In this document: positions 10,290 through 20,375 of the stretch, in pieces
Layout of the letters: every line of letters begins with the position of its first letter
Position numbering within the stretch: position 1 is the stretch's first letter
Origin: Mucilaginibacter achroorhodeus
GTDB taxonomy: Bacteria; Bacteroidota; Bacteroidia; Sphingobacteriales; Sphingobacteriaceae
DNA: 64,000 bases
Direction: 5' to 3'
NCBI RefSeq assembly: GCF_007846095.1
Contig: NZ_VOEI01000001.1
Location: 620,001 to 684,000 of the forward strand
Translations under genes and position numbers: made by a program
The notes under the pieces: model-generated
The model's input: only the letters and a program-made list of their open reading frames with translations
Told to the model about the DNA's origin: nothing
The model's database searches: none

Positions 10290-13200
10290 TTAAACCGGTG
10301 GCTCGTCTCCGCCGCCTACGAGCCCTGCCTTTTTCACTTTCACATTACCGGTACGTTTTAATACACCCCATGTGTTCAACTCCCCTTTTAAAGCTTTGCG
10401 GATAGATTTGAATAAGATGTAATACATCAGTTGCCTCCATATAAAGCGCTGCGGTATCAGATATACCAATTTACCGTACGGTTCCTTTTCCATACGGAAA
10501 GCGATTGCACCCACTATAAAATCGACCAGCAGGAATGCTACATAAAATACCAGCATTTTTTCAGGGTGGCTACCGAATAAACCTAATATCATGATGAGAT
10601 CGGCCAGTGGTGAAAATAGCGGCAAGATGATCTGGAAGATCAGGATGTTAGGCATCCCAACCATACCAAAGTAATTGAACTTGCTATTGAATAAAGCATC
10701 CCGGTTTTTCCAGAAACTCTGGATAACGCCAAAGCTCCAGCGGAAACGTTGTTTAAGCAGTGCATTTAATGTTTCAGGTGCTTCGGTGTAGGCTATCGCT
10801 TCGGCACAGTTTTTCACTACGTAGCCTTCTTTAAGGATACGCATGGTAAGATCACAATCCTCCGCAAGCGTATCATAAGTAAAACCGCCAGCCCTGAATA
10901 TAGCCGACTTGCGGAAAGCACCAATAGCGCCAGGCACAACCGTAATACTATTAATGATGTCAAACGCCCGGCGGTCCATGTTTTGAGCGGTTATATACTC
11001 TAACGACTGCCACTTGGTGATCATATTGGTTTCGTTACCCACCTTCACCGTACCTGCCACTGCCCCTATCTGCTCGTCAGTAAAATAGGTCATCATGTGG
11101 TAAATAGCATCATTTTTGAGCTGGGTGTCAGCATCGATACAGATCACATAATCGTTGGTTGCATGGCTTATACCGAAGTTTAAAGCAGAAGCTTTGCCCC
11201 CGTTAGGCTTGGTGAGCACCGTTACCTTAGGGTGATTTGCATAAGCTTCGCTTACCACTTTGTAGGTACTATCTTTTGAACCATCATCGACAAAAATGAT
11301 GTTGAATACCGGGTATTCGGTCTTTAGCAAACTTTCGATGGTTTTCGTTGCCGTTACTTCCTCATTATAAGCCGGCACAATAATACTTATCGGCGGCAAT
11401 TCATGCGCCGTGTATTGTATCTTCTTGTTATCATTAAACTGCCTTGTTGCCAGTATACCTATAAGGATAATACGACCCATTGCCAGGAATATCGCAAACA
11501 AGAACACGTAGAAGAAGAACTTATTACCCAGGAAGAACCCTACCACAACAATATCGTAGTAATGCCCCCAGAAATTCTGCTCATCGGTAGCTACCGGCAT
11601 CAGTTCGATCTTCTTTTTATTTAGGATATCAGCAATGGTGGTAAACTCGTAGCCGTTCTTTTTAAAGAAATGGATGATGGCCGGGAGAGCCTTCACCGTT
11701 TCTTCGCGCGTATCACCACCCGCATCGTGCAACAGAATCATACTGCCATTGTCTTTCTGGCGAATGGTACGGGCGATGATGCTATCAGCTGTAACGCCAG
11801 GCTGCCAATCCCATGGGTCGATAGACTCCCCTATGGTAATATAGCTTTGTCTGCGGCTCTCGGCCACCGGGATAACCTCTGCAAGCGTTTGCGGCTCGGC
11901 ATCGGCATTAAACGGCGGGCGGAAAAGTATGGTGCTATGCCCGGTTACCGATTCGATCAACTTACGGGTGGAGTTAAGCTCCAGATTAACCCGCTCAAGG
12001 CTTATGGTAGAAATATCAGGGTGAAAGAACGTGTGATTACCAATTTCATATCCTTCATCATAAATACGTTTGAGCAGAGGTATATTTTTCTCTACCATTG
12101 ACCCCACCACGAAGAAAGATCCGGGAACTTTCTCACGCTTCAGAATATCTAATATCCGTGGCGTATAATCAGGATCGGGACCATCATCAAAAGTTAGAAC
12201 AATTTTACCCGGCTTGTAACCATACTTGCGGATAACGTATTTGGTGGGTATAGTTTTATAGTACTGACTGGTAATGATAAAATTTTTCGGATCCATCGAA
12301 ATATCGATCTCTCCTTTGTTAGGTACAGTTATCAGGTCCAGCACCTCGCCATCACCAGCGTAACTGATGTTATTATTTAAACCTACGGTTGTTAGCCTTT
12401 TTATCTCGACGCCGGTTTTCTTTAACGAGTCTATCGAAAGGTTTTTGCGGAAGAAGGTCCACAAGCGCGGGTCTTCACCACCTAAGCGCCAAAGGGCCAC
12501 GCCACCCGTTGCCCAATCGTCAGCCATGCGCATAACATTGAAGTTGGTAGCTGCATCGGCAAAGTAAACGGTGTGGTCGAGACCATCATTACCTAAATAA
12601 GTGTAGTGTGAATTGGCCGAGTTGGAATCGAAAATTATCTTTTTATTTTTCTGCTGTGCAGTACCTATTGCCTGCTGATAACCTATGGATTGCCCAACGC
12701 TACCCTCGGGCCAATCGTACCCGCCGCTGGCAAGCGTTAAGATCACTTTTTCGCTCGGTATAAGAGAACAAACATGATCCAAAATCTCCTCTACCCAGTG
12801 CTGGTGAGCCACGTCGCCGGAGTTGGTGCCGTCGTTGTGTTCATCTATGGCCATCACAAACAAATAATCGTTTACATGCTGCAGGCGCTTAAGGTCGTAC
12901 TCTTCATCATCAGGAGCAACGTTTTGTGTTACCAGCAGGTCATTGGCTTTAAATATCCGGTAAAGATCATTCTGAAAGGCAATATACTCTTTGCTGTTAC
13001 GGTTTTTAATATCTTCAATCTCAACGTTAACACCATTAAAGTTGTAATGCTTTAACACCCCCACCATACTGTTGATGAAAGCGGTACGCAACTTTTTGCT
13101 TTTAAAGATGCGCTGTACATCCTTGGTATCAAATTCGCCGGTTTTATTATCAATGTTTACGTAGTTGGATAAGGTAACAAGTACCTGCTTTTTAAAGCGC

Positions 13201-13673
13201 TTGTTTACGTTGATCAAACCGGTATCAATGGCAGTAGTGAGCGTATCGGCATTGCGCGAAAAAGAAAAACCCTCAGATATGATCATATCCAGGTGAGGCA
13301 TACTCTCTACCAGGGATGTGTAAGCCTGTGATTCCCATGCTTTATAAAAAGCTGCGTTAATACGCCTAGCGTTGTTTGGGTGCTTGAGCTGGTGCAGACG
13401 GCGCGCGCGTGCCAGTTGCTCTATCTCCGCCTTTTCGATTGTAAAATCGCGGTATCTTTTAGATTTTTTGAAAGCATTAAGGTCTTCTTTGGCTATCCGT
13501 TTTGGTGTAGGATCCAAAACCGGCAATGCAGGGTATTCTTTTGATGTTACCGTAATAACGGCAGCAACAACGCCAACTACAAAAACTATAAGTAATACAC
13601 GACTAAGCCATTTAAAACGGTTCCACCTTCCGGGGTTATCGGCCTGAAATATCTGCCTGTTGTTTGAGGACAT
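10290..13673 (-). CDS. GH18-like / polysaccharide deacetylase / GT2 glycosyltransferase fusion
   Basis: An 1127-residue membrane protein with three enzyme modules. A membrane segment lies at about 24-44. A GH18-like domain spans about 100-420; its signature is changed to FNGVNVEIED, keeping the terminal Glu region. A NodB/CE4 deacetylase spans about 485-690, with TFDDGP, the metal-binding pair in NHTFFHPD, RPPF and LLHDAG. After membrane helices at 705-745, a processive GT2 domain spans about 755-990 (VPAYNEE, VDDGSKD, DAD, AEDCDLT, QRFRW), followed by more helices. The GT2 part resembles poly-GlcNAc or hyaluronan synthases, and the deacetylase and GH18 parts would act outside. It likely makes and trims an N-acetylated exopolysaccharide; the polymer is inferred. 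Confidence 0.92.
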   Translation of the reverse strand: MSSNNRQIFQADNPGRWNRFKWLSRVLLIVFVVGVVAAVITVTSKEYPALPVLDPTPKRIAKEDLNAFKKSKRYRDFTIEKAEIEQLARARRLHQLKHPNNARRINAAFYKAWESQAYTSLVESMPHLDMIISEGFSFSRNADTLTTAIDTGLINVNKRFKKQVLVTLSNYVNIDNKTGEFDTKDVQRIFKSKKLRTAFINSMVGVLKHYNFNGVNVEIEDIKNRNSKEYIAFQNDLYRIFKANDLLVTQNVAPDDEEYDLKRLQHVNDYLFVMAIDEHNDGTNSGDVAHQHWVEEILDHVCSLIPSEKVILTLASGGYDWPEGSVGQSIGYQQAIGTAQQKNKKIIFDSNSANSHYTYLGNDGLDHTVYFADAATNFNVMRMADDWATGGVALWRLGGEDPRLWTFFRKNLSIDSLKKTGVEIKRLTTVGLNNNISYAGDGEVLDLITVPNKGEIDISMDPKNFIITSQYYKTIPTKYVIRKYGYKPGKIVLTFDDGPDPDYTPRILDILKREKVPGSFFVVGSMVEKNIPLLKRIYDEGYEIGNHTFFHPDISTISLERVNLELNSTRKLIESVTGHSTILFRPPFNADAEPQTLAEVIPVAESRRQSYITIGESIDPWDWQPGVTADSIIARTIRQKDNGSMILLHDAGGDTREETVKALPAIIHFFKKNGYEFTTIADILNKKKIELMPVATDEQNFWGHYYDIVVVGFFLGNKFFFYVFLFAIFLAMGRIILIGILATRQFNDNKKIQYTAHELPPISIIVPAYNEEVTATKTIESLLKTEYPVFNIIFVDDGSKDSTYKVVSEAYANHPKVTVLTKPNGGKASALNFGISHATNDYVICIDADTQLKNDAIYHMMTYFTDEQIGAVAGTVKVGNETNMITKWQSLEYITAQNMDRRAFDIINSITVVPGAIGAFRKSAIFRAGGFTYDTLAEDCDLTMRILKEGYVVKNCAEAIAYTEAPETLNALLKQRFRWSFGVIQSFWKNRDALFNSKFNYFGMVGMPNILIFQIILPLFSPLADLIMILGLFGSHPEKMLVFYVAFLLVDFIVGAIAFRMEKEPYGKLVYLIPQRFIWRQLMYYILFKSIRKALKGELNTWGVLKRTGNVKVKKAGLVGGGDEPPV

Positions 13674-13938: not shown

Positions 13939-15135
13939 CTATTTATGCATAAAAGCCACCGTGCCGCCCACCCAGTCAAAATCCTTATTGTAGCGTACGC
14001 CAATCATTTTACCCCTGCTTAACCTTGCCAGGTTTATCGCAAGGGTAGGTTTATTATGCCCATCGGGCCAAAGATACAGCAATCTTATCTCCACCTTAAC
14101 GCCACCATCCGGCGATTCGACAACGGGCACATAATCAACTTTTTGCTGCAGTATCCAGTTCTCAGGGTCAGGCAGTTTTTCTATATCATCATCCATTACA
14201 TCAATGATAACGCCCTGCCCCGCAAAACTAAACAGCGGCTTAAGCACATAATTATGCAAATCATCAGGAATTGTTGCCAGCTTATTTACAAACTGTGTTT
14301 GCGGCACATAATTCCCTTTTAGGAATGGAATGGTGTATTTACTGATTCGATAAAACCAGTTAGGATGCGTTATCCATTCCACATCAAGGGGTTGGCGTAT
14401 ATCAACTACTTTATCAAATATGTTCTGATCACTTTCTATCTCGTCAAATATCAGGCGGTTATAGATCCGCCTTATCCGTTTCTTTTCACCATCAGCGTTA
14501 TGGTAAAAAAGCTGATCGCCTTCCTGTATCAGATCGGCAAGTGAAATTATCGGGGTACCAATGTATCGTTCTGTAAGATAGAAATCAACAGCGGTTTTTT
14601 GTTCGGGCGCGTTTACATCCATCAGTACCACTTCATCGGGCTGGTACGGGCCTAAGATGGTTTCCTTTAGCAGATCTATGTAACTGCTTTTACTTAGCTG
14701 GTTAAAAAAAATGGTTTGATTACCAGGCACGTTAAAGGTATGGCGATAAGTTTCGGCCAGGTGCAACTGAAAACCATACAGCGACGGGAAGCCCTGCATC
14801 TCTATCAGCTTAGGAACGATGTTGCCCGCCTCATCTTTACAAACCCCAAAATCCAGCGCTATAAAGTGAGGATGGTCATTCTCGTTGGCAACGCGCCACT
14901 TATCAGGTATGGCACGCTCGCTCAGTTCCTTAAAGCCCGGTGCGGTTACAACATCTATTATCTCCTGCCCTGCCTGTACCAGTTTATCCCTAAAATCGTC
15001 TGTTAGGAAAACGGGGGTTTCTGCCACGCGAAACTCTACCGGCTTATCCAGTCCTGCATTAAGGTCGACCAGAAAATCGGCATATTTTTCTTCAGTGAAG
15101 TTTTGATTAAATACGGTTCTGACAGATGGGTTCAT
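13939..15135 (-). CDS. ATP-grasp-like amide ligase, last gene of the amidoligase cluster
   Basis: A 398-residue protein from the ATG at 15135; the frame is open to a TTG at 15165. I read it as ATP-grasp-like. KLIEMQGFPSLYGFQ (about 115-130) resembles the substrate/metal segment of glutathionylspermidine-synthase-type folds. YVLKPLFSFAGQGV (about 305) resembles the lysine plus glycine-rich ATP loop. WILQQKVDY and VEIRLLYLW (about 335-360) resemble the next strands. It is the promoter-distal gene of the five-gene minus-strand cluster and is separated from the amidotransferase by a palindromic element (15177-15270). Substrate unknown; a peptide or polyamine amide bond is inferred. Confidence 0.65.
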   Translation of the reverse strand: MNPSVRTVFNQNFTEEKYADFLVDLNAGLDKPVEFRVAETPVFLTDDFRDKLVQAGQEIIDVVTAPGFKELSERAIPDKWRVANENDHPHFIALDFGVCKDEAGNIVPKLIEMQGFPSLYGFQLHLAETYRHTFNVPGNQTIFFNQLSKSSYIDLLKETILGPYQPDEVVLMDVNAPEQKTAVDFYLTERYIGTPIISLADLIQEGDQLFYHNADGEKKRIRRIYNRLIFDEIESDQNIFDKVVDIRQPLDVEWITHPNWFYRISKYTIPFLKGNYVPQTQFVNKLATIPDDLHNYVLKPLFSFAGQGVIIDVMDDDIEKLPDPENWILQQKVDYVPVVESPDGGVKVEIRLLYLWPDGHNKPTLAINLARLSRGKMIGVRYNKDFDWVGGTVAFMHK

Positions 15136-15176
15136 GGGTGATGATGTTTTAAATAATGCGTACAAACTGCCAAATT

Positions 15177-15270
15177 ATGTCATTGCGAGCGATAGCGTGG
15201 CAATCTCATAGGATATATGTTAAAACTCGCTATGAGATTGCAACGTCGCTGACGCTCCTCGCAATGACAT
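15177..15270. repeat. CAATCTCAT palindromic repeat, copy 1
   Basis: Left arm starts ATGTCATTGCGAGCGATAGC and ends CAATCTCAT; right arm starts ATGAGATTGCAACGTCGC and ends CTCGCAATGACAT. The two arms are imperfect reverse complements around a 22-base centre. A second copy lies at 29447-29556. Confidence 0.85.
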
Positions 15271-15291
15271 TTGATATTTTGGCGCACCGTC

Positions 15292-16137
15292 TTACACTCT
15301 TGGTTCCAACTTCTCATACTTCAGCAATGCCTTATTCAAAAAATTGGGAATGATGGTGTGCTGTGTGTGTACTATCTTATCCGGGTCTTCCAGGCGCTCT
15401 ATCATCTCGTTGTATTTCGCTTCGCCGTGCTCTTCTATCACGTCGGCTTTTTTATCTTCGCGCTGTAACAGCATGCTCATTCCGTGCGCATCAGCCTCCG
15501 GATGAAATTGTGTTGCAAAAAAGTACGGGCTAAACCTTATCGCCATCATAGCACGGGGCAAGTCAACGTACGGGCGCTCCTTTTCAAGTGCAACCAGCTC
15601 CATATCTAAATCTTTAAAACGCTTTTCATCTGGATTTATCACTTGCCAGCTACGCGAATCAACCGTGTAAAAGGGATTGCTCAATCCATCAAATATGTGT
15701 TCATTATTCCCGTTGCCAACAATATGCACAGGCAGCACGCCAAAAGACGACGACCGCCGTGTATTGATCTCGCCCAAACCATACTTGCGGCACATCAACT
15801 GGAAAGAGTGACAAACAAAGAAAACATGCTTTTTATCGGCGCTGTTGCCCAGGTTATGATCTTCCAGTTGATCTATAAGATTAAAATAACTGCGTTCCCA
15901 AACGCTGCCTTCGCTATCCAGCGGACTACCCGGACCACCGCTTGATATGTAAGCATCAAAACCCAGGCCCGGCACTTCTGCCTTGCCGCGTACATCAAAA
16001 ACCTGGTAGCTTAAATTTAAATTGTGCTGCATTTTGTAGCGCTCCAGTATCTCCCGGAAACCCCGCATCCCCTCATTTGCCACGCCATCGTATAAGTCTA
16101 ATATGGCTACCTTAATTTCCGGTGTGTTAGTATTCAT
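15292..16137 (-). CDS. Class I glutamine amidotransferase domain protein
   Basis: A 281-residue GMP-synthase-like class I amidotransferase. The nucleophile elbow is FFVCHSFQLMC (Cys at about residue 125) and the His-Glu pair is in ATQFHPEAD (about 213-217), so the triad looks intact. The oxyanion segment is SSGGPGSPLD. It should hydrolyse glutamine, or a gamma-glutamyl compound, to release ammonia or cleave the isopeptide. The extra C-terminal 65 residues are acidic and hydrophilic. It sits between the GCS2 ligase and the ATP-grasp-like gene, so it probably supplies ammonia to, or removes glutamyl groups from, the product of its neighbours. Confidence 0.85.
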   Translation of the reverse strand: MNTNTPEIKVAILDLYDGVANEGMRGFREILERYKMQHNLNLSYQVFDVRGKAEVPGLGFDAYISSGGPGSPLDSEGSVWERSYFNLIDQLEDHNLGNSADKKHVFFVCHSFQLMCRKYGLGEINTRRSSSFGVLPVHIVGNGNNEHIFDGLSNPFYTVDSRSWQVINPDEKRFKDLDMELVALEKERPYVDLPRAMMAIRFSPYFFATQFHPEADAHGMSMLLQREDKKADVIEEHGEAKYNEMIERLEDPDKIVHTQHTIIPNFLNKALLKYEKLEPRV

Positions 16138-16154
16138 AATCTTTTTCTAATTAG

Positions 16155-16236
16155 GCCTCACCCTGTCCTCTCCAAAGGAGAGGGTTCTAAAATCTTTTTT
16201 TAAAGTCCTCTCCTATGGAGAGGATTTAGGTGAGGC
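16155..16236. repeat. CACCC/CCTCTCC double-hairpin repeat, copy 2
   Basis: Outer arms GCCTCACC / GGTGAGGC are perfect. Inside are two small hairpins, CCTCTCCAAAGGAGAGG and CCTCTCCTATGGAGAGG. It ends one base before the stop codon of the GCS2 gene (16238-16240). Confidence 0.85.
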
Positions 16237-16237
16237 T

Positions 16238-17335
16238 TCAAATCCCTTTTAACGTTTGTGATGTGATATAGTCAACCACATCTACAAAGTTATTACTTTG
16301 GTTATAAACAGCCAGTTGCCTATCCGCACCGGTGCCGTGCTCCAGTATTTTGTGTACGTAGGCCAGATCATCCCTTGAGCCAAGCTCATCAACTAGATCG
16401 TCAACAAAATCAAGCAGCTCTAAAACTAGCGATCGGGTGTTCACTTCCATTTCCTTGCCGAAGTCTATCATTTTCCCATCGATGCCGTAACGGGCCGCGC
16501 GCCATTTGTTCTCGTTGATCAAAGCGCGCGAATAGTTGATAAACTTCATGTTCTGTGACCGCAGTTTATAAAGCTTGGCGCACAACGCCTGGAACAATGC
16601 TGTAAAGGCGATAGTTTCATCAACCAACATAGGGCAATCGCAAATGCGAAACTCTATGGTCTCAAAAAACGGATGCACGCGGATATCCCACCATATCTTT
16701 TTAGCATTATCAATACAGTTGGTTTTTACGAGCAATTTGATGTACCGGTCGTATTCTTCAATGCTGCCGAAGTAATCGGGTATTCCCGTCCTTGGGAATT
16801 TATCAAACACTTTGGTACGGAACGATTTGAATCCTGTATTCCGACCCTCCCAAAATGGCGAGTTGGTTGATAACGCATATACGTGCGGTAAAAAATACCG
16901 CACCTGGTTGGCAATGTGTATGGCCATATCGCGCGATTGGATGCCCACATGCACATGTAACCCAAAGATAAGATTTGAGCGTGCAGCTTCCTGCATCTCA
17001 TCCACTATCTCAAAATATCGCGGATGGTCTGTTATCAATTGATGTTGCCAGTGCGAAAATGGGTGCGTGCCCGCGGCACCTATCCGCAGGCCCAGGTCGC
17101 CAGCCAGTTGGGCTACGGTGCCACGTAGTTTGGTCACCTCAGCTCGAGCCTCCTGCGTGTTACGGCAAATGTGTGTGCCCACCTCAACCACAGCCTGGTG
17201 CATTTCGGCCTTCACCTGGTCTTCATGTATCTTTTGCGCACTATCAACAATCTTCTGTTCGTGCGATGTGAGTTCCCTGGTCACAGGGTCAATCACCATA
17301 AATTCTTCTTCAACACCTAAGGTGAACTCGTTCAT
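16238..17335 (-). CDS. YbdK/GCS2-type carboxylate-amine ligase
   Basis: A 365-residue member of the glutamate-cysteine ligase type 2 family (YbdK, COG2170). The start TLGVEEEFMVIDP carries the conserved Glu residues that bind Mg-ATP. GTHPFSHW and FGLHVHVG are the other family signatures. The fold is glutamine-synthetase-like and joins a carboxylate to an amine with ATP. E. coli YbdK has only weak gamma-glutamylcysteine activity, so the natural substrate is open. It lies in a five-gene cluster with ATP-grasp and amidotransferase genes, which argues for a dedicated product rather than glutathione. The organism appears to use bacillithiol instead. Confidence 0.92.
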   Translation of the reverse strand: MNEFTLGVEEEFMVIDPVTRELTSHEQKIVDSAQKIHEDQVKAEMHQAVVEVGTHICRNTQEARAEVTKLRGTVAQLAGDLGLRIGAAGTHPFSHWQHQLITDHPRYFEIVDEMQEAARSNLIFGLHVHVGIQSRDMAIHIANQVRYFLPHVYALSTNSPFWEGRNTGFKSFRTKVFDKFPRTGIPDYFGSIEEYDRYIKLLVKTNCIDNAKKIWWDIRVHPFFETIEFRICDCPMLVDETIAFTALFQALCAKLYKLRSQNMKFINYSRALINENKWRAARYGIDGKMIDFGKEMEVNTRSLVLELLDFVDDLVDELGSRDDLAYVHKILEHGTGADRQLAVYNQSNNFVDVVDYITSQTLKGI

Positions 17336-17373
17336 AATTGGTTAGGGGTTATTGGTTGTAACAGTTCGTTTTG

Positions 17374-17493
17374 ACTCACCCGGTCGTCGCTCCGCTCGAC
17401 CACCCTCTCTCCGCAAGCGGAAAGAGGGAATTTAATTTTCACCCTCTTTGCGCAGCAGAGAGGGTCGACCAGCGAAGCATAGTCGGGGTGAGT
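17374..17493. repeat. CACCC/CCCTCTTT double-hairpin repeat, copy 3
   Basis: Perfect outer arms ACTCACCC / GGGTGAGT enclose two hairpins (CCCTCTCTCCGCAAGCGG... and CCCTCTTTGCGCAGCAGAGAGGG). The right end shares a base with the TAA stop codon of the ATP-grasp gene (17493-17495). Confidence 0.88.
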
Positions 17494-18626
17494 TACTTCT
17501 TCGTCTTTTTAGGTGCTGCTTTTTCGGCGGCAACCTTTTTAGACTTTTCTTCTTTCGCTGCGGCTGCCTTCTTAGGTGCCGCTTTCTTTTTCGCCTTGCC
17601 TTCTTCAGCTATTGTATGATCTATTGGACCTTCTGTTACAGGATTGGCTTGCAGACTGATATTTTTTGCCACGTACAATTCTTTACCCGCAACAGAGGTT
17701 TTTAGGTACTCGCCCCAGGTAAGGTTATCGCGGTCGTCTTTTTGCTTTTTGGCGCGTTCAATGGCATAGCTTGCTGCGGTTTCAACCACCCAGTCAAAAT
17801 TTTCCTGGCCCACGCTGGTCACTTCGGCATCAGGTGCGGGGTTGCAGAAGTCTATTGCATACGGAATGCCGTTACGCACGGCAAACTCAACGGTGTTAAA
17901 ATCGTAGCCTAAGTATTGGTTAAGGCGCAAAACATAATCGGTAATAGTTTCCAGCATTTTTTTGGATGCAGGTGCTTTGCCATGCTCATAACGCAGGTGG
18001 TGCGGGTTACGCGGTTCGTACTGCATAATGCGCACGTGCTTTCCACCAATGCAGTAGCAGCGGAAGTAATCGTCAAAGATGATCTCTTCCTGCAGTAACA
18101 TTACCAGCTGCTTGGTTTCGGCAAATTTTGCCCAAAGATCTTCGGCATCGCTGATCTTGTAAACATCGCGCCAACCGCCACCATCAAAGGGCTTCATGTA
18201 GGCCGGGAATCCAACGTAGTTAAACATTGCTTCCCAATCCAGCGGATAGGCCAGGTTACGAAATGATCTATCAGTTGTGTTATCCGGATGATCTTTTGAT
18301 GGCAATAACACCGTTTTAGGCACCGGCACGCCTATTTTAGTAGCGAGGGCGTTGTTAAAGAACTTCTCATCAGCACTCCACCAAAATGGGTTATTGATAA
18401 CCGCCGTACCGGTGATAGCTGCATTTTTAAGCGATGCGCGGTAAAAAGGCACATCCTGCGATATACGGTCAACAATTACCGAATAGCCCAATGGCTCACC
18501 TTGCAACATTTTATCAATGCGCACAAATTCGGCGCTGATACCTTTCTCGGCCTTCTCGTTAATGCGATCAACAAATGCCTGAGGAAATGAATTTTCCTGC
18601 CCAAATAAAATGCCTATTTTTTTCAT
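17493..18626 (-). CDS. ATP-grasp ligase with lysine/alanine-rich tail
   Basis: A 377-residue ATP-grasp protein (RimK-like). The ATP-binding lysine and glycine loop are in YMKPFDGGGWRDV (about 181-193). LLQEEIIFDDYFRCYCIGG follows as the hinge and adenine strand. The Mg-binding acidic segment is NTVEFAVRNG-IPYAIDFCNPAPD (about 276-300). These indicate an ADP-forming carboxylate-amine or thiol ligase. The last 38 residues are a histone-H1-like tail of KKAAPKKAAAAK-type repeats, unusual for a metabolic enzyme. It is the second gene of the cluster, downstream of an esterase gene and upstream of GCS2. Confidence 0.85.
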   Translation of the reverse strand: MKKIGILFGQENSFPQAFVDRINEKAEKGISAEFVRIDKMLQGEPLGYSVIVDRISQDVPFYRASLKNAAITGTAVINNPFWWSADEKFFNNALATKIGVPVPKTVLLPSKDHPDNTTDRSFRNLAYPLDWEAMFNYVGFPAYMKPFDGGGWRDVYKISDAEDLWAKFAETKQLVMLLQEEIIFDDYFRCYCIGGKHVRIMQYEPRNPHHLRYEHGKAPASKKMLETITDYVLRLNQYLGYDFNTVEFAVRNGIPYAIDFCNPAPDAEVTSVGQENFDWVVETAASYAIERAKKQKDDRDNLTWGEYLKTSVAGKELYVAKNISLQANPVTEGPIDHTIAEEGKAKKKAAPKKAAAAKEEKSKKVAAEKAAPKKTKK

Positions 18627-18724
18627 GGTAGTTTGTTTGGTGCCGGTTGAGAGAGCCGGACGTGTTTCTTTAAGATTTTTATTTTTAAGTAGCTATCTTG
18701 ATTCTTGTCTCTTAATTCTTTATT

Positions 18725-19432
18725 CTATTTTATCGTACTCAAATAATGCGAGAACATCTCTTTCCAAATCGGCCAGTCGTGCTTGCCATCAGGCCGGATA
18801 TCCAGCCAGTGATTGATGTTTTTGTTATTTAAAATATGAGATAGCGTAAGGTTATATTCCTTGCAAATATCCCAGTCTGATGTACCTAAAATGATGTTCA
18901 TTTGCCAAAGCGCCCAGTTGTCGCTGCGCGGTAAGTAATCTACCGGATTATTATAAAATATGTTGTCATCATAATACCCATCGGTAAACATTCTGATATC
19001 GAAAGCGCCTCCCATGCTAAAGAGGTGCCCAACTTTCTCGGGATGTTTAAAGGCAAAGTTGGCAGCATGGTAACCACCAAAACTGCATCCGGCAACGGCT
19101 ACCTTGCCTACGCCCGTTTCATGCATGGCCCATGGTGCCAGCTCTTCAAGCAGCATTTTATTGTACCAGGCATATCGGCGGGCGCGATCTGCGGGATGGA
19201 TACCTTTATCGTACCAGGTAATGTCATCAAAGGTTGATGGGCAGTAGATCTTGACCAGGCCTTCATCAATAAACCATCGCACACTATCAATAAGTCCGTG
19301 GTCTTTATTCTGATAATATGCGCCCTTCGTAGTCGGGAATAAAAGCACCGGGTAACCACGGTCACCAAAAACCAGCATCTCAACGTCGAGGTTTAAATTT
19401 GGCGAGTGCCAGCGATGATATTGTTCCTTCAA
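18725..19432 (-). CDS. Alpha/beta-hydrolase esterase, first gene of the amidoligase cluster
   Basis: A 235-residue serine esterase of the esterase D / putative esterase family. The nucleophile elbow is VAVAGCSFGGYHA (Ser at about residue 117). A His is in GKHDWPIW near the C-terminus (about 223). No signal peptide is present, so it should be cytosolic. The start is a TTG at 19432; an in-frame TAA lies 18 bases upstream and no ATG is available. It heads the minus-strand cluster and may remove an ester or release the final product. A second, divergent esterase lies 134 bases away. Confidence 0.85.
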   Translation of the reverse strand: MKEQYHRWHSPNLNLDVEMLVFGDRGYPVLLFPTTKGAYYQNKDHGLIDSVRWFIDEGLVKIYCPSTFDDITWYDKGIHPADRARRYAWYNKMLLEELAPWAMHETGVGKVAVAGCSFGGYHAANFAFKHPEKVGHLFSMGGAFDIRMFTDGYYDDNIFYNNPVDYLPRSDNWALWQMNIILGTSDWDICKEYNLTLSHILNNKNINHWLDIRPDGKHDWPIWKEMFSHYLSTIK

Positions 19433-19565
19433 TTGCCGGTGGTTAAATTAAAAAGGTAAGTTAATGGGTTTGGATGTTAATGTCAACATTATGCCAAATA
19501 ATTCTGTTTTAAGCTTTTGGTAAACTTTAAAACTTATTTTTGTCCCCTTAAATTTAAAAACACCT

Positions 19566-20375
19566 ATGTACTACAGTACAGAGACAGCGATAATGATAGA
19601 CGAACAGGAACTGATAGTTACTTCTAAGATACTTGACCGGGATATTACCTGCACCCTGCTTAAGCCACAGGCAGATGCAATTACTGAACCTTTGAATTTG
19701 TTACTACTTAACGATGGCCAGGAAGTAAACGCACTTGGGCTTGTTGATACACTTGAGCAACTTTACGACCGTAATAGCATAAAGCCTGTGCTGGTTGTAG
19801 CTATACACGCTAATGACGAGCGCCTGCAGGAATATGGCGTAGCTGGTAGACCCGACTTTAAAAAGCGTGGCAGCAAAGCGGCGCTTTACACGCAATTCAT
19901 TTTAAAGGAGCTTATTCCATTTATCAAAGCGGAAACGGATGTGGATGAGTTTGAAAGTACAGCGATAGCCGGATTTTCTTTAGGAGGCTTATCGGCCTTT
20001 GATATTGCCTGGAACAATCCGCAGGTATTTGAAAAAGTCGGAACATTCTCCGGTTCTTTTTGGTGGAGAAGCAAGGACCTGGGCAAGGGCTACACCAATG
20101 ACGACCGCATTATGCACGCAGTTATCAAGAATGCCGCAACAAAACCTGATCTGAAATTTTGGCTGCAAACCGGCACCAAAGATGAAACCGCCGACCGCAA
20201 CAACAACGGCATCATTGATTCTATTGACGATACTATCGACATCATTAAGGAACTTTTAGCTAAAGGCGCACAACGCAGCGACATCCAATACCTGGAGATG
20301 CTGAACGGAACGCATGACACCGCAACATGGGGCAAAGCCATGCCTAAGTTTTTGTGCTGGGCGTTTGGGAAATAG
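19566..20375 (+). CDS. Alpha/beta-hydrolase esterase, divergent from the amidoligase cluster
   Basis: A 269-residue esterase of the same broad family as 18725-19432. The nucleophile elbow is TAIAGFSLGGLSAFD and the His is in LNGTHDTATW near the C-terminus. DETADRNNNGIIDSIDD is an acidic, calcium-loop-like insert. No signal peptide is seen, so it is cytosolic. The ATG at 19566 is taken; an in-frame ATG at 19593 would give 260 residues. A TATTTTTG box at 19535-19542 is a possible -7 element. It probably shares a control region with the minus-strand cluster. Confidence 0.85.
   Translation: MYYSTETAIMIDEQELIVTSKILDRDITCTLLKPQADAITEPLNLLLLNDGQEVNALGLVDTLEQLYDRNSIKPVLVVAIHANDERLQEYGVAGRPDFKKRGSKAALYTQFILKELIPFIKAETDVDEFESTAIAGFSLGGLSAFDIAWNNPQVFEKVGTFSGSFWWRSKDLGKGYTNDDRIMHAVIKNAATKPDLKFWLQTGTKDETADRNNNGIIDSIDDTIDIIKELLAKGAQRSDIQYLEMLNGTHDTATWGKAMPKFLCWAFGK

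Follow-up and report, generated by a model that had tools for sequence, protein, structure and literature searches.

A six-gene cluster of amide ligases and hydrolases in Mucilaginibacter achroorhodeus and its possible role in the synthesis of a small peptide-like amide

The stretch of DNA considered here (in the following the window: 64,000 nucleotides of Mucilaginibacter achroorhodeus, NCBI RefSeq assembly GCF_007846095.1, contig NZ_VOEI01000001.1, positions 620,001 to 684,000) comprises a cluster of six genes, A to F, at positions 13939-20375. The initial annotation, made from the sequence alone, had likened these genes to a compact pathway whose product would be a small peptide-like molecule or a modified amino acid. 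The cluster itself is borne out by the list of open reading frames (ORFs), which contains five ORFs on the minus strand and one divergent ORF on the plus strand. Computed here were the gene content, the folds of the ligases A and D, candidate active-site residues, the gene order, the joint occurrence of D, C and A, and the occurrence of another protein, X, in place of A. The features are as follows (coordinates within the window):

13939-15135, minus strand: A, ATP-grasp ligase of 398 residues (the listed ORF, 13939-15165, begins at TTG 15165)
15292-16137, minus strand: B, class I glutamine-amidotransferase-fold protein (PF00117; Cys109-His212-Glu214)
16238-17335, minus strand: C, YbdK-type (GCS2) carboxylate-amine ligase (PF04107, NF010039)
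17493-18626, minus strand: D, RimK/LysX-fold ATP-grasp ligase by fold comparison, core at about residues 1-320
17496-17657, minus strand: disordered Lys/Ala/Pro-rich C-terminal tail of D, 54 residues, with low predicted local distance difference test (pLDDT) values
18725-19432, minus strand: E, alpha/beta serine hydrolase (Pfam and invariant residues)
19433-19565, no strand: intergenic region of E and F, presumed promoter region, with divergent genes on either side
19566-20375, plus strand: F, PF00756 esterase, divergent from E (Pfam and invariant residues)

Gene products of the cluster

Since neither A nor D matched a Pfam family at an E value of 0.01, the identification of both as ATP-grasp ligases was taken from the fold. 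Structure comparison of the predicted models agreed with the two ATP-grasp-type ligases named in the initial annotation, with D folding like RimK and A like YgiC. The model of A (pLDDT 90.8) aligned with YgiC of E. coli (7uk8) over 345 residues and thus nearly the whole chain, with a VIA Z-score of 26.5 and 3.5 Å; YjfC, glutathionylspermidine synthetase (GspS; Z 24.8) and human glutathione synthetase (Z 24.0) were also near. After 23 entries of the YgiC/glutathione synthetase group the Z-score drops to 12.4 and then to 8.3, and in Foldseek all 24 matches with E values of at most 0.001 belong to the YgiC/GspS/glutathione synthetase group. As judged from its model, A has the fold shared by YgiC/YjfC, GspS and eukaryotic glutathione synthetase.

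The glutathionylspermidine synthase family PF03738 did not match the window protein at an E value of 10 and matched 5 of the 34 aligned A proteins (the window protein and 33 of 46 homologues) weakly, the best with 9.4e-4. A sequence search of solved structures with the single protein gave four chance-level matches only, and with the alignment it gave YgiC (E value 0.08) and an iron transport protein (0.6). The segment LIEMQGFPS holds Glu122, invariant in the alignment of 34, and by eye it resembles the E-x-N motif of the group with Gln in place of Asn. Because Met11 of the listed ORF is likewise conserved in all 34 proteins and 29 of the 33 aligned homologues begin with this residue, ATG 15135 is the more likely true start of A.

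The predicted model of D has a pLDDT of 75.5, with the lowest values for the tail and residues 207-212. Compared to RimK (4iwx), it showed a VIA Z-score of 21.2 with 2.8 Å over 256 residues, and compared to LysX a Z-score of 19.6; in Foldseek, ArgX, Ddl, RimK and LysX ranked at the top. The model places D in the ATP-grasp superfamily with a RimK/LysX-like core, while its score for the RimK family TIGR00768 is 30.4 bits versus a cut-off of 143.4 bits. Window D also missed the R2K_2 cut-off (12.3 versus 26.2 bits); weak R2K_2 matches were found for 33 of 40 aligned D proteins (window D and 39 of 73 length-filtered homologues), the best with an E value of 0.0041. The sequence search of solved structures gave no match for D. 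CDC123 is absent among the 50 structural matches listed for D, which excludes nothing.

The tail of D showed pLDDT values below 50 in residues 321-372 and 374-377 of the predicted model. A tail of at least 20 residues was found in 40 of 78 D proteins, 38 of these ending in Lys and 30 in Lys-Lys. Lys-rich tails were also found in the phylum sample described below, where 12 of 69 canonical D proteins, from several families, have one. RimK and LysX/ArgX act on a protein end or on a carrier protein. Since these are the best structural matches of D and Lys-rich tails recur, the ligases could also serve protein tagging, in which D, or D with A, would add amino acids to a protein, perhaps to its own tail, and B, E or an M29-type peptidase (see below) would remove them. 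The weak R2K matches fit as well, as R2K-clade ATP-grasp proteins, with two conserved lysines in the RAGNYA domain, have been proposed to modify proteins (PMC4431377). We consider this explanation improbable: the tail of the remaining 38 D proteins has fewer than 20 residues, also in loci such as L049 where the gene set is complete, C and A look like small-molecule ligases, and an ORF scan of wide B-A and D-C gaps in a few loci brought up no small gene resembling a carrier. A graspetide (RiPP) cluster would have a precursor peptide gene beside the ATP-grasp gene; the ORF scan bearing on this covered the same gaps. In one relative (G021; L025, L028), D was found in two overlapping pieces, one of them with an internal stop. 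D may for this reason be broken there, although A and C of this genome match at full length.

For hydrolase E, scores of 28.6-32.2 bits were above the cut-offs of Abhydrolase_1, Esterase and ABHD18, and F reached 102 bits for Esterase (PF00756; cut-off 22 bits). The likely catalytic triads, assigned by eye, are Ser117 of GCSFGG, Asp188 and His218 in E (invariant in 45 of 45 aligned homologues) and Ser138 of GFSLGG, Asp206 and His250 in F (63 of 63). These homologues were picked by length from 47 plus-strand and 71 minus-strand hydrolase ORFs, respectively. Among solved structures, the sequence search found only 8pjr for E and seven entries, including enterochelin esterases, for F. At residues of about 206-222, F carries a conserved D-R-N-N-N-G-I-I-D-like loop that resembles a calcium-binding loop, with D210, R211, I217 and D218 invariant in all 63 proteins.

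Gene order and joint occurrence in Bacteroidota

In a species-level contig collection, a relative of D is encoded in at least 586 of the 595 stretches that matched. For a comparison of loci, the 80 most similar of these were fetched; many of the contigs end nearby. By tblastn, C was found in 78 of the 80 loci, F in 73, B in 51, E in 48 and A in 47. Since all five recur around D, their grouping exceeds chance. The shared order consists of a divergent F followed by E-D-C-B-A, and this order was found again in Mucilaginibacter and Pedobacter loci. The nearest named loci belong to Mucilaginibacter sp. 44-25 and M. conchicola, with D proteins 97% and 96% identical to that of the window, and many named Chitinophagaceae loci show F, D and C only. 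The median gaps amount to 70 bases for E-D (46 pairs), 35 for D-C (73), 7 for C-B (47) and 88 for B-A (44), and to 152 for the divergent pair F-E (43 loci).

The joint occurrence was determined in 296 genomes of this single phylum, which were searched with the alignments of D, A, C and B. Matches were obtained in 109 genomes for D, 92 for A, 103 for C and 70 for B (the latter at an E value of 1e-30 or better). The pair counts refer to 295 genomes, with the own genome excluded, and to 108 D genomes, G271 (D match at 1.7e-4) being included in the 109 only. D and A occur together in 88 genomes (in 41 of them not within 6 kb or on different contigs), D and C in 90 (35 not within 6 kb) and A and C in 86 (38); the p values are 8e-52, 3e-44 and 6e-51, calculated as hypergeometric probabilities that ignore phylogeny and shared descent. 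For B, the same calculation gave 68 genomes together with D (22 not within 6 kb; p 2e-37), 57 with C (25; 3e-21) and 54 with A (14; 3e-21). On the same contig yet more than 6 kb apart were eight D-A, ten D-C, seven A-C and six D-B pairs. A restriction of the families to this strain, which the initial annotation had named as a refutation, was thus not observed; D, C and A occur together across the phylum, also where they are not adjacent.

Within the genus, 18 of 36 other genomes comprise D, C and A, and 14 comprise none of them, a weak C match in G016 (30.7 bits) being scored as absent. D and C were found in two (assemblies 83% and 61% complete), D only in one and C only in one. The three ligases are mostly present or absent jointly within the genus, and together with the co-occurrence in the phylum this lends support to the proposal of one compact pathway. 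The opposite explanation, in which the genes have unrelated functions and only happen to lie side by side, could draw on the dispersed genes in several families and on the genomes with D only or C only. It is given hardly any credence here, since the genes co-occur when non-adjacent, are mostly present or absent jointly in the genus, and include an A that is replaced by X in one clade of D (see below).

Ligase C passed all three curated cut-offs (PF04107, 218 versus 21 bits; TIGR02050, 309.7 versus 176.4 bits; NF010039, 542.3 versus 371 bits) and is the sole GCS2 match of the source genome at an E value of 0.001. The sequence search of solved structures led to the YbdK entries 1r8g and 1tt4; the alignment of C comprises the window protein and 21 of 74 homologues. 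In nine genomes (e.g. G223 and G301), C matches of 269-348 bits were found without D, A or B, which probably represent a different YbdK-type paralogue.

The presence of a GCS2 ligase together with A, with its eukaryotic glutathione synthetase fold, raises the question of a glutathione-like thiol or redox compound, with C as glutamate-cysteine ligase and A as counterpart of glutathione synthetase. The family of F (PF00756) includes S-formylglutathione hydrolase, which F matches weakly with 21.5 bits. According to the initial annotation, the organism appears to make bacillithiol, and this is plausible because BshC is encoded on another contig of the source genome. BshC was found in 291 of the 296 genomes, so that there is almost no contrast for comparing the presence of the gene set with a missing BshC; bacillithiol does not depend on the six-gene set. 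Since bacillithiol is available nearly everywhere in the sample, a second thiol is not needed, and D would have no obvious role in its synthesis. A thiol compound is accordingly regarded as very unlikely.

Apparent replacements of A and of B, and variable surroundings

Fifteen genomes of the phylum sample hold D and B but no A, and all of them carry another protein, X, of about 455 residues. X scores above 600 bits were obtained in all 15 of them and nowhere else, so that no genome has both A and X; lower scores, as in 25 of the 40 genomes with a match (G193, for instance, with 362 bits), were not taken as X. In total, 103 of 107 D genomes hold A or X, never both, and the remaining four are those with a divergent D. 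D and B lie within 6 kb in 14 of the 15 genomes, with X between them by position, while G345 comprises D with X and a B on a separate contig. A tree of D comprises the proteins of 73 fetched loci and of the window, 74 in total, and not those of all 108 D genomes; the X-type proteins in it, 14 in number, group as a single clade with a support of 0.998.

Two X proteins were scanned against the circularly permuted ATP-grasp families PF14403 and PF04174 (cut-offs 32 and 23.1 bits), giving 32.5 and 27.8 bits for L124 and 25.8 and 20.3 bits for L119. The profile comparison of A and X, the latter represented by seven proteins of which three were trimmed at the start by eye, was not significant (E value 0.09). 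Going by the Pfam names, A and X would nevertheless be of one ATP-grasp fold. Since X occurs exactly where D and B lack A, and in one clade of D, it appears that one ligase replaced another while the partner D stayed.

A second apparent exchange concerns B, which the initial annotation had named a glutamine amidotransferase. Its membership in PF00117 (37.6 versus a cut-off of 22.8 bits) and the intact triad stand, with Cys109, His212 and Glu214 invariant in 18 of 18 aligned proteins (window B and 17 of 51 homologues); its function as amidotransferase is less certain. The canonical nucleophile elbow of class I glutaminases is G-x-C-x-G-x-[QEH]. B deviates from it, with F-V-C-H-S-F-Q in the window and [FL]-[VI]-C-H-S-[FY]-Q in the family; C, H, S and Q do not vary among the 18 aligned proteins. 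The sequence search of solved structures with B gave homoserine O-succinyltransferase and 3l7n, both weakly.

In addition, 34 genomes contain D, C and A without B at the threshold of 1e-30. C and A lie within 6 kb in seven of these, and in five of the seven a gene for an M29-type peptidase is located between them, i.e. in the slot of B (four loci verified by Pfam, the fifth by clustering). In L154, an extra small ORF lies beside the M29-type gene. Because a peptidase holds the same slot in five loci, an amide-hydrolysing role is favoured, and B is more likely an amide or gamma-glutamyl hydrolase than an ammonia donor, with glutaminase activity possible too, as far as this can be read from sequence. 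If B were instead a true glutamine amidotransferase, it would deliver ammonia to A, X or D, and the product would be the primary amide of an acid or peptide. The retained class I triad and the PF00117 membership agree with this, and so does the association with X: B is present in all 15 X genomes, and 13 of the 14 X loci fetched have it close to D. The altered elbow, the 34 genomes that manage without B and the five loci with the M29-type peptidase point in the other direction, and we regard an ammonia-donating B as rather unlikely.

The surroundings of the set are less constant. Among the 80 loci, the commonest further neighbour families, named by Pfam from one member each, are BipA/TypA (29), a cyclic-nucleotide-binding regulator-like family (23), YceI (23), pirin (22) and a TonB-receptor-like family (17), besides GH18-deacetylase-glycosyltransferase proteins (25, mostly in Mucilaginibacter and Pedobacter), ispF (18) and PorV (14). 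In the window, positions 10290-13673 beside A encode a protein of 1127 residues with GH18, polysaccharide deacetylase and GT2 domains. L065:3683-6850 and L045:12646-14824 are examples of TonB-receptor-like genes and of the cyclic-nucleotide-binding, YceI and pirin genes in some lineages. The contig of L065 is labelled Williamsia, an actinobacterium, and carries Bacteroidota-type F, D and C, so that it is probably a misbinned or misnamed assembly.

Where A is unlinked, it is preceded in one family by a sodium:solute symporter gene, namely in three of the four genomes that were examined (two Pfam-checked; e.g. L197:4637-7237 and L199:6987-8369), and in G181 symporter and A are fused in a single frame of 867 residues. 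The absence of a carrier protein, non-ribosomal peptide synthetase or transporter, as stated in the initial annotation, therefore holds for the six genes, but not for all lineages, as a TonB-receptor-like gene or a symporter adjoins in some. In two other families, an Amidohydro_3 gene lies directly upstream of A (L201, L202, L203 and L214; Pfam on L201 and L203), overlapping the start of A in L203. Single cases are an M42 peptidase located upstream of the pair B-A and an S33-like hydrolase that separates A from B. Although each case comprises few genomes, the recurrent peptidases fit a peptide-like product.

Scans for regulatory sites neither prove nor exclude a single transcript. The Bacteroidota-type promoter pattern occurs five times in the window versus 4.8 expected, with none inside the cluster, and sigma-70-type sites occur 13 times versus 13.4 expected. 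Terminator-like sites are more frequent (14 observed versus 7.5 expected), with no such site on the minus strand within any intergenic gap of the cluster. Spread of the set on plasmids was rejected, since a tblastn search of 72,556 plasmid records with A, and with D lacking its first 62 residues, gave no match at an E value of 1e-5. A defence-system identity was rejected as well; PADLOC gave a single weak match, to C (PDC-S02, 17.8 bits, E value 9e-4).

Proposed pathway and comparison with known systems

Altogether, it is assumed, with about even chances of being right, that the genes represent one cytosolic pathway, widespread in Bacteroidota, which assembles a small peptide-like amide non-ribosomally, through a series of ATP-dependent ligations. 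C would probably form a gamma-glutamyl or other carboxylate-amine bond, and the RimK/LysX-like D would attach a further amino acid. A or X would then couple the carboxylate of the small peptide to an amine, as GspS and YgiC/YjfC do. B or the M29-type peptidase would cleave an amide, either for deprotection or for turnover, and E and F would remove or release an acyl group. We infer in this scheme that all genes act on one molecule, and likewise the order of the steps, the gamma-glutamyl chemistry, the amine or polyamine acceptor and the hydrolysis by B; a polyamine-type acceptor is a lead from the similarity of the predicted folds alone. More tentatively, and with less than even confidence, the product may be a hitherto unrecognised, widely conserved metabolite of Bacteroidota with a cofactor-like or stress role. 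It would probably be an amine conjugate of peptidyl or gamma-glutamyl type, for whose synthesis D and either A or X act as a near-obligate pair together with C and which B or M29 turns over; it would be kept by descent and not represent a strain-specific natural product.

Several observations weigh against the proposed pathway. The fold that A is predicted to share with YgiC and GspS does not show a common reaction. The intergenic gaps in the window (E-D 98, D-C 157, C-B 100 and B-A 156 bases) are all larger than the medians of the other loci, and genes counted as apart in the phylum sample may be split by contig ends. Incomplete sets also occur. In the genus, G036 (99% complete; D 65% identical) holds D without A or C, X not having been searched for there, and G034 holds C without D or A. 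In the phylum, four genomes contain a divergent D only (213-351 bits) without A or X, nine contain C only, and three contain A but no D. Of the 103 genomes that combine D with A or X, not counting the source genome, 13 lack C (eight with X, five with A) and 35 lack B, so that the steps of C and B would be dispensable or supplied elsewhere. Finally, in the other two of the seven B-less genomes with C and A in proximity (G060 and G065), neither an M29 gene nor anything else lies between C and A.

About one third of the sampled Bacteroidota carry these ligases. If they make one compound, this would be a common yet unseen chemistry of a major environmental phylum, and the pairing of D with A or X would be a precise genetic handle for finding it. 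Among the matches listed in literature searches on the set, its ligases and the parallels, no paper on this gene set was found, although one may still exist.

It is known that different amidoligases can be combined in one operon, where they often carry out peptide ligations in succession (PMC4431377, citing Iyer et al. 2009, 10.1039/b917682a). RimK, LysX and ArgX resemble D in fold (Z 18.3-21.2), while D lies far under the RimK-family cut-off given above. In the biosynthesis of ergothioneine, the GCS2 ligase EgtA adds a gamma-glutamyl group which the amidotransferase-type hydrolase EgtC later removes. The difference is that EgtC has a class II (Ntn) fold, and the six genes include no member like EgtB, EgtD or EgtE. 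For the fungal compound E-64, whose synthesis is NRPS-independent, PMC12568646 describes Cp1B, an ATP-grasp ligase of glutathione synthetase fold that couples an acid with an amino acid and is followed by a second amide ligase; 9cjn compared to A showed a Z-score of 22.4. The E-64 cluster, a fungal secondary-metabolite cluster, also comprises an oxygenase, a decarboxylase and an ANL-family ligase, which have no counterpart among the six genes. YgiC and YjfC are described in the same paper as peptidylpolyamine synthetases, with the peptide-spermidine ligase activity credited to Pederick et al. 2023. Together with the glutathionylspermidine synthetase/amidase they are like A in fold (Z 24.1-26.5), and a ligase acting with the amide hydrolase B would parallel GspS, with the differences that window A has no GSP_synth match and that D and C accompany A here.

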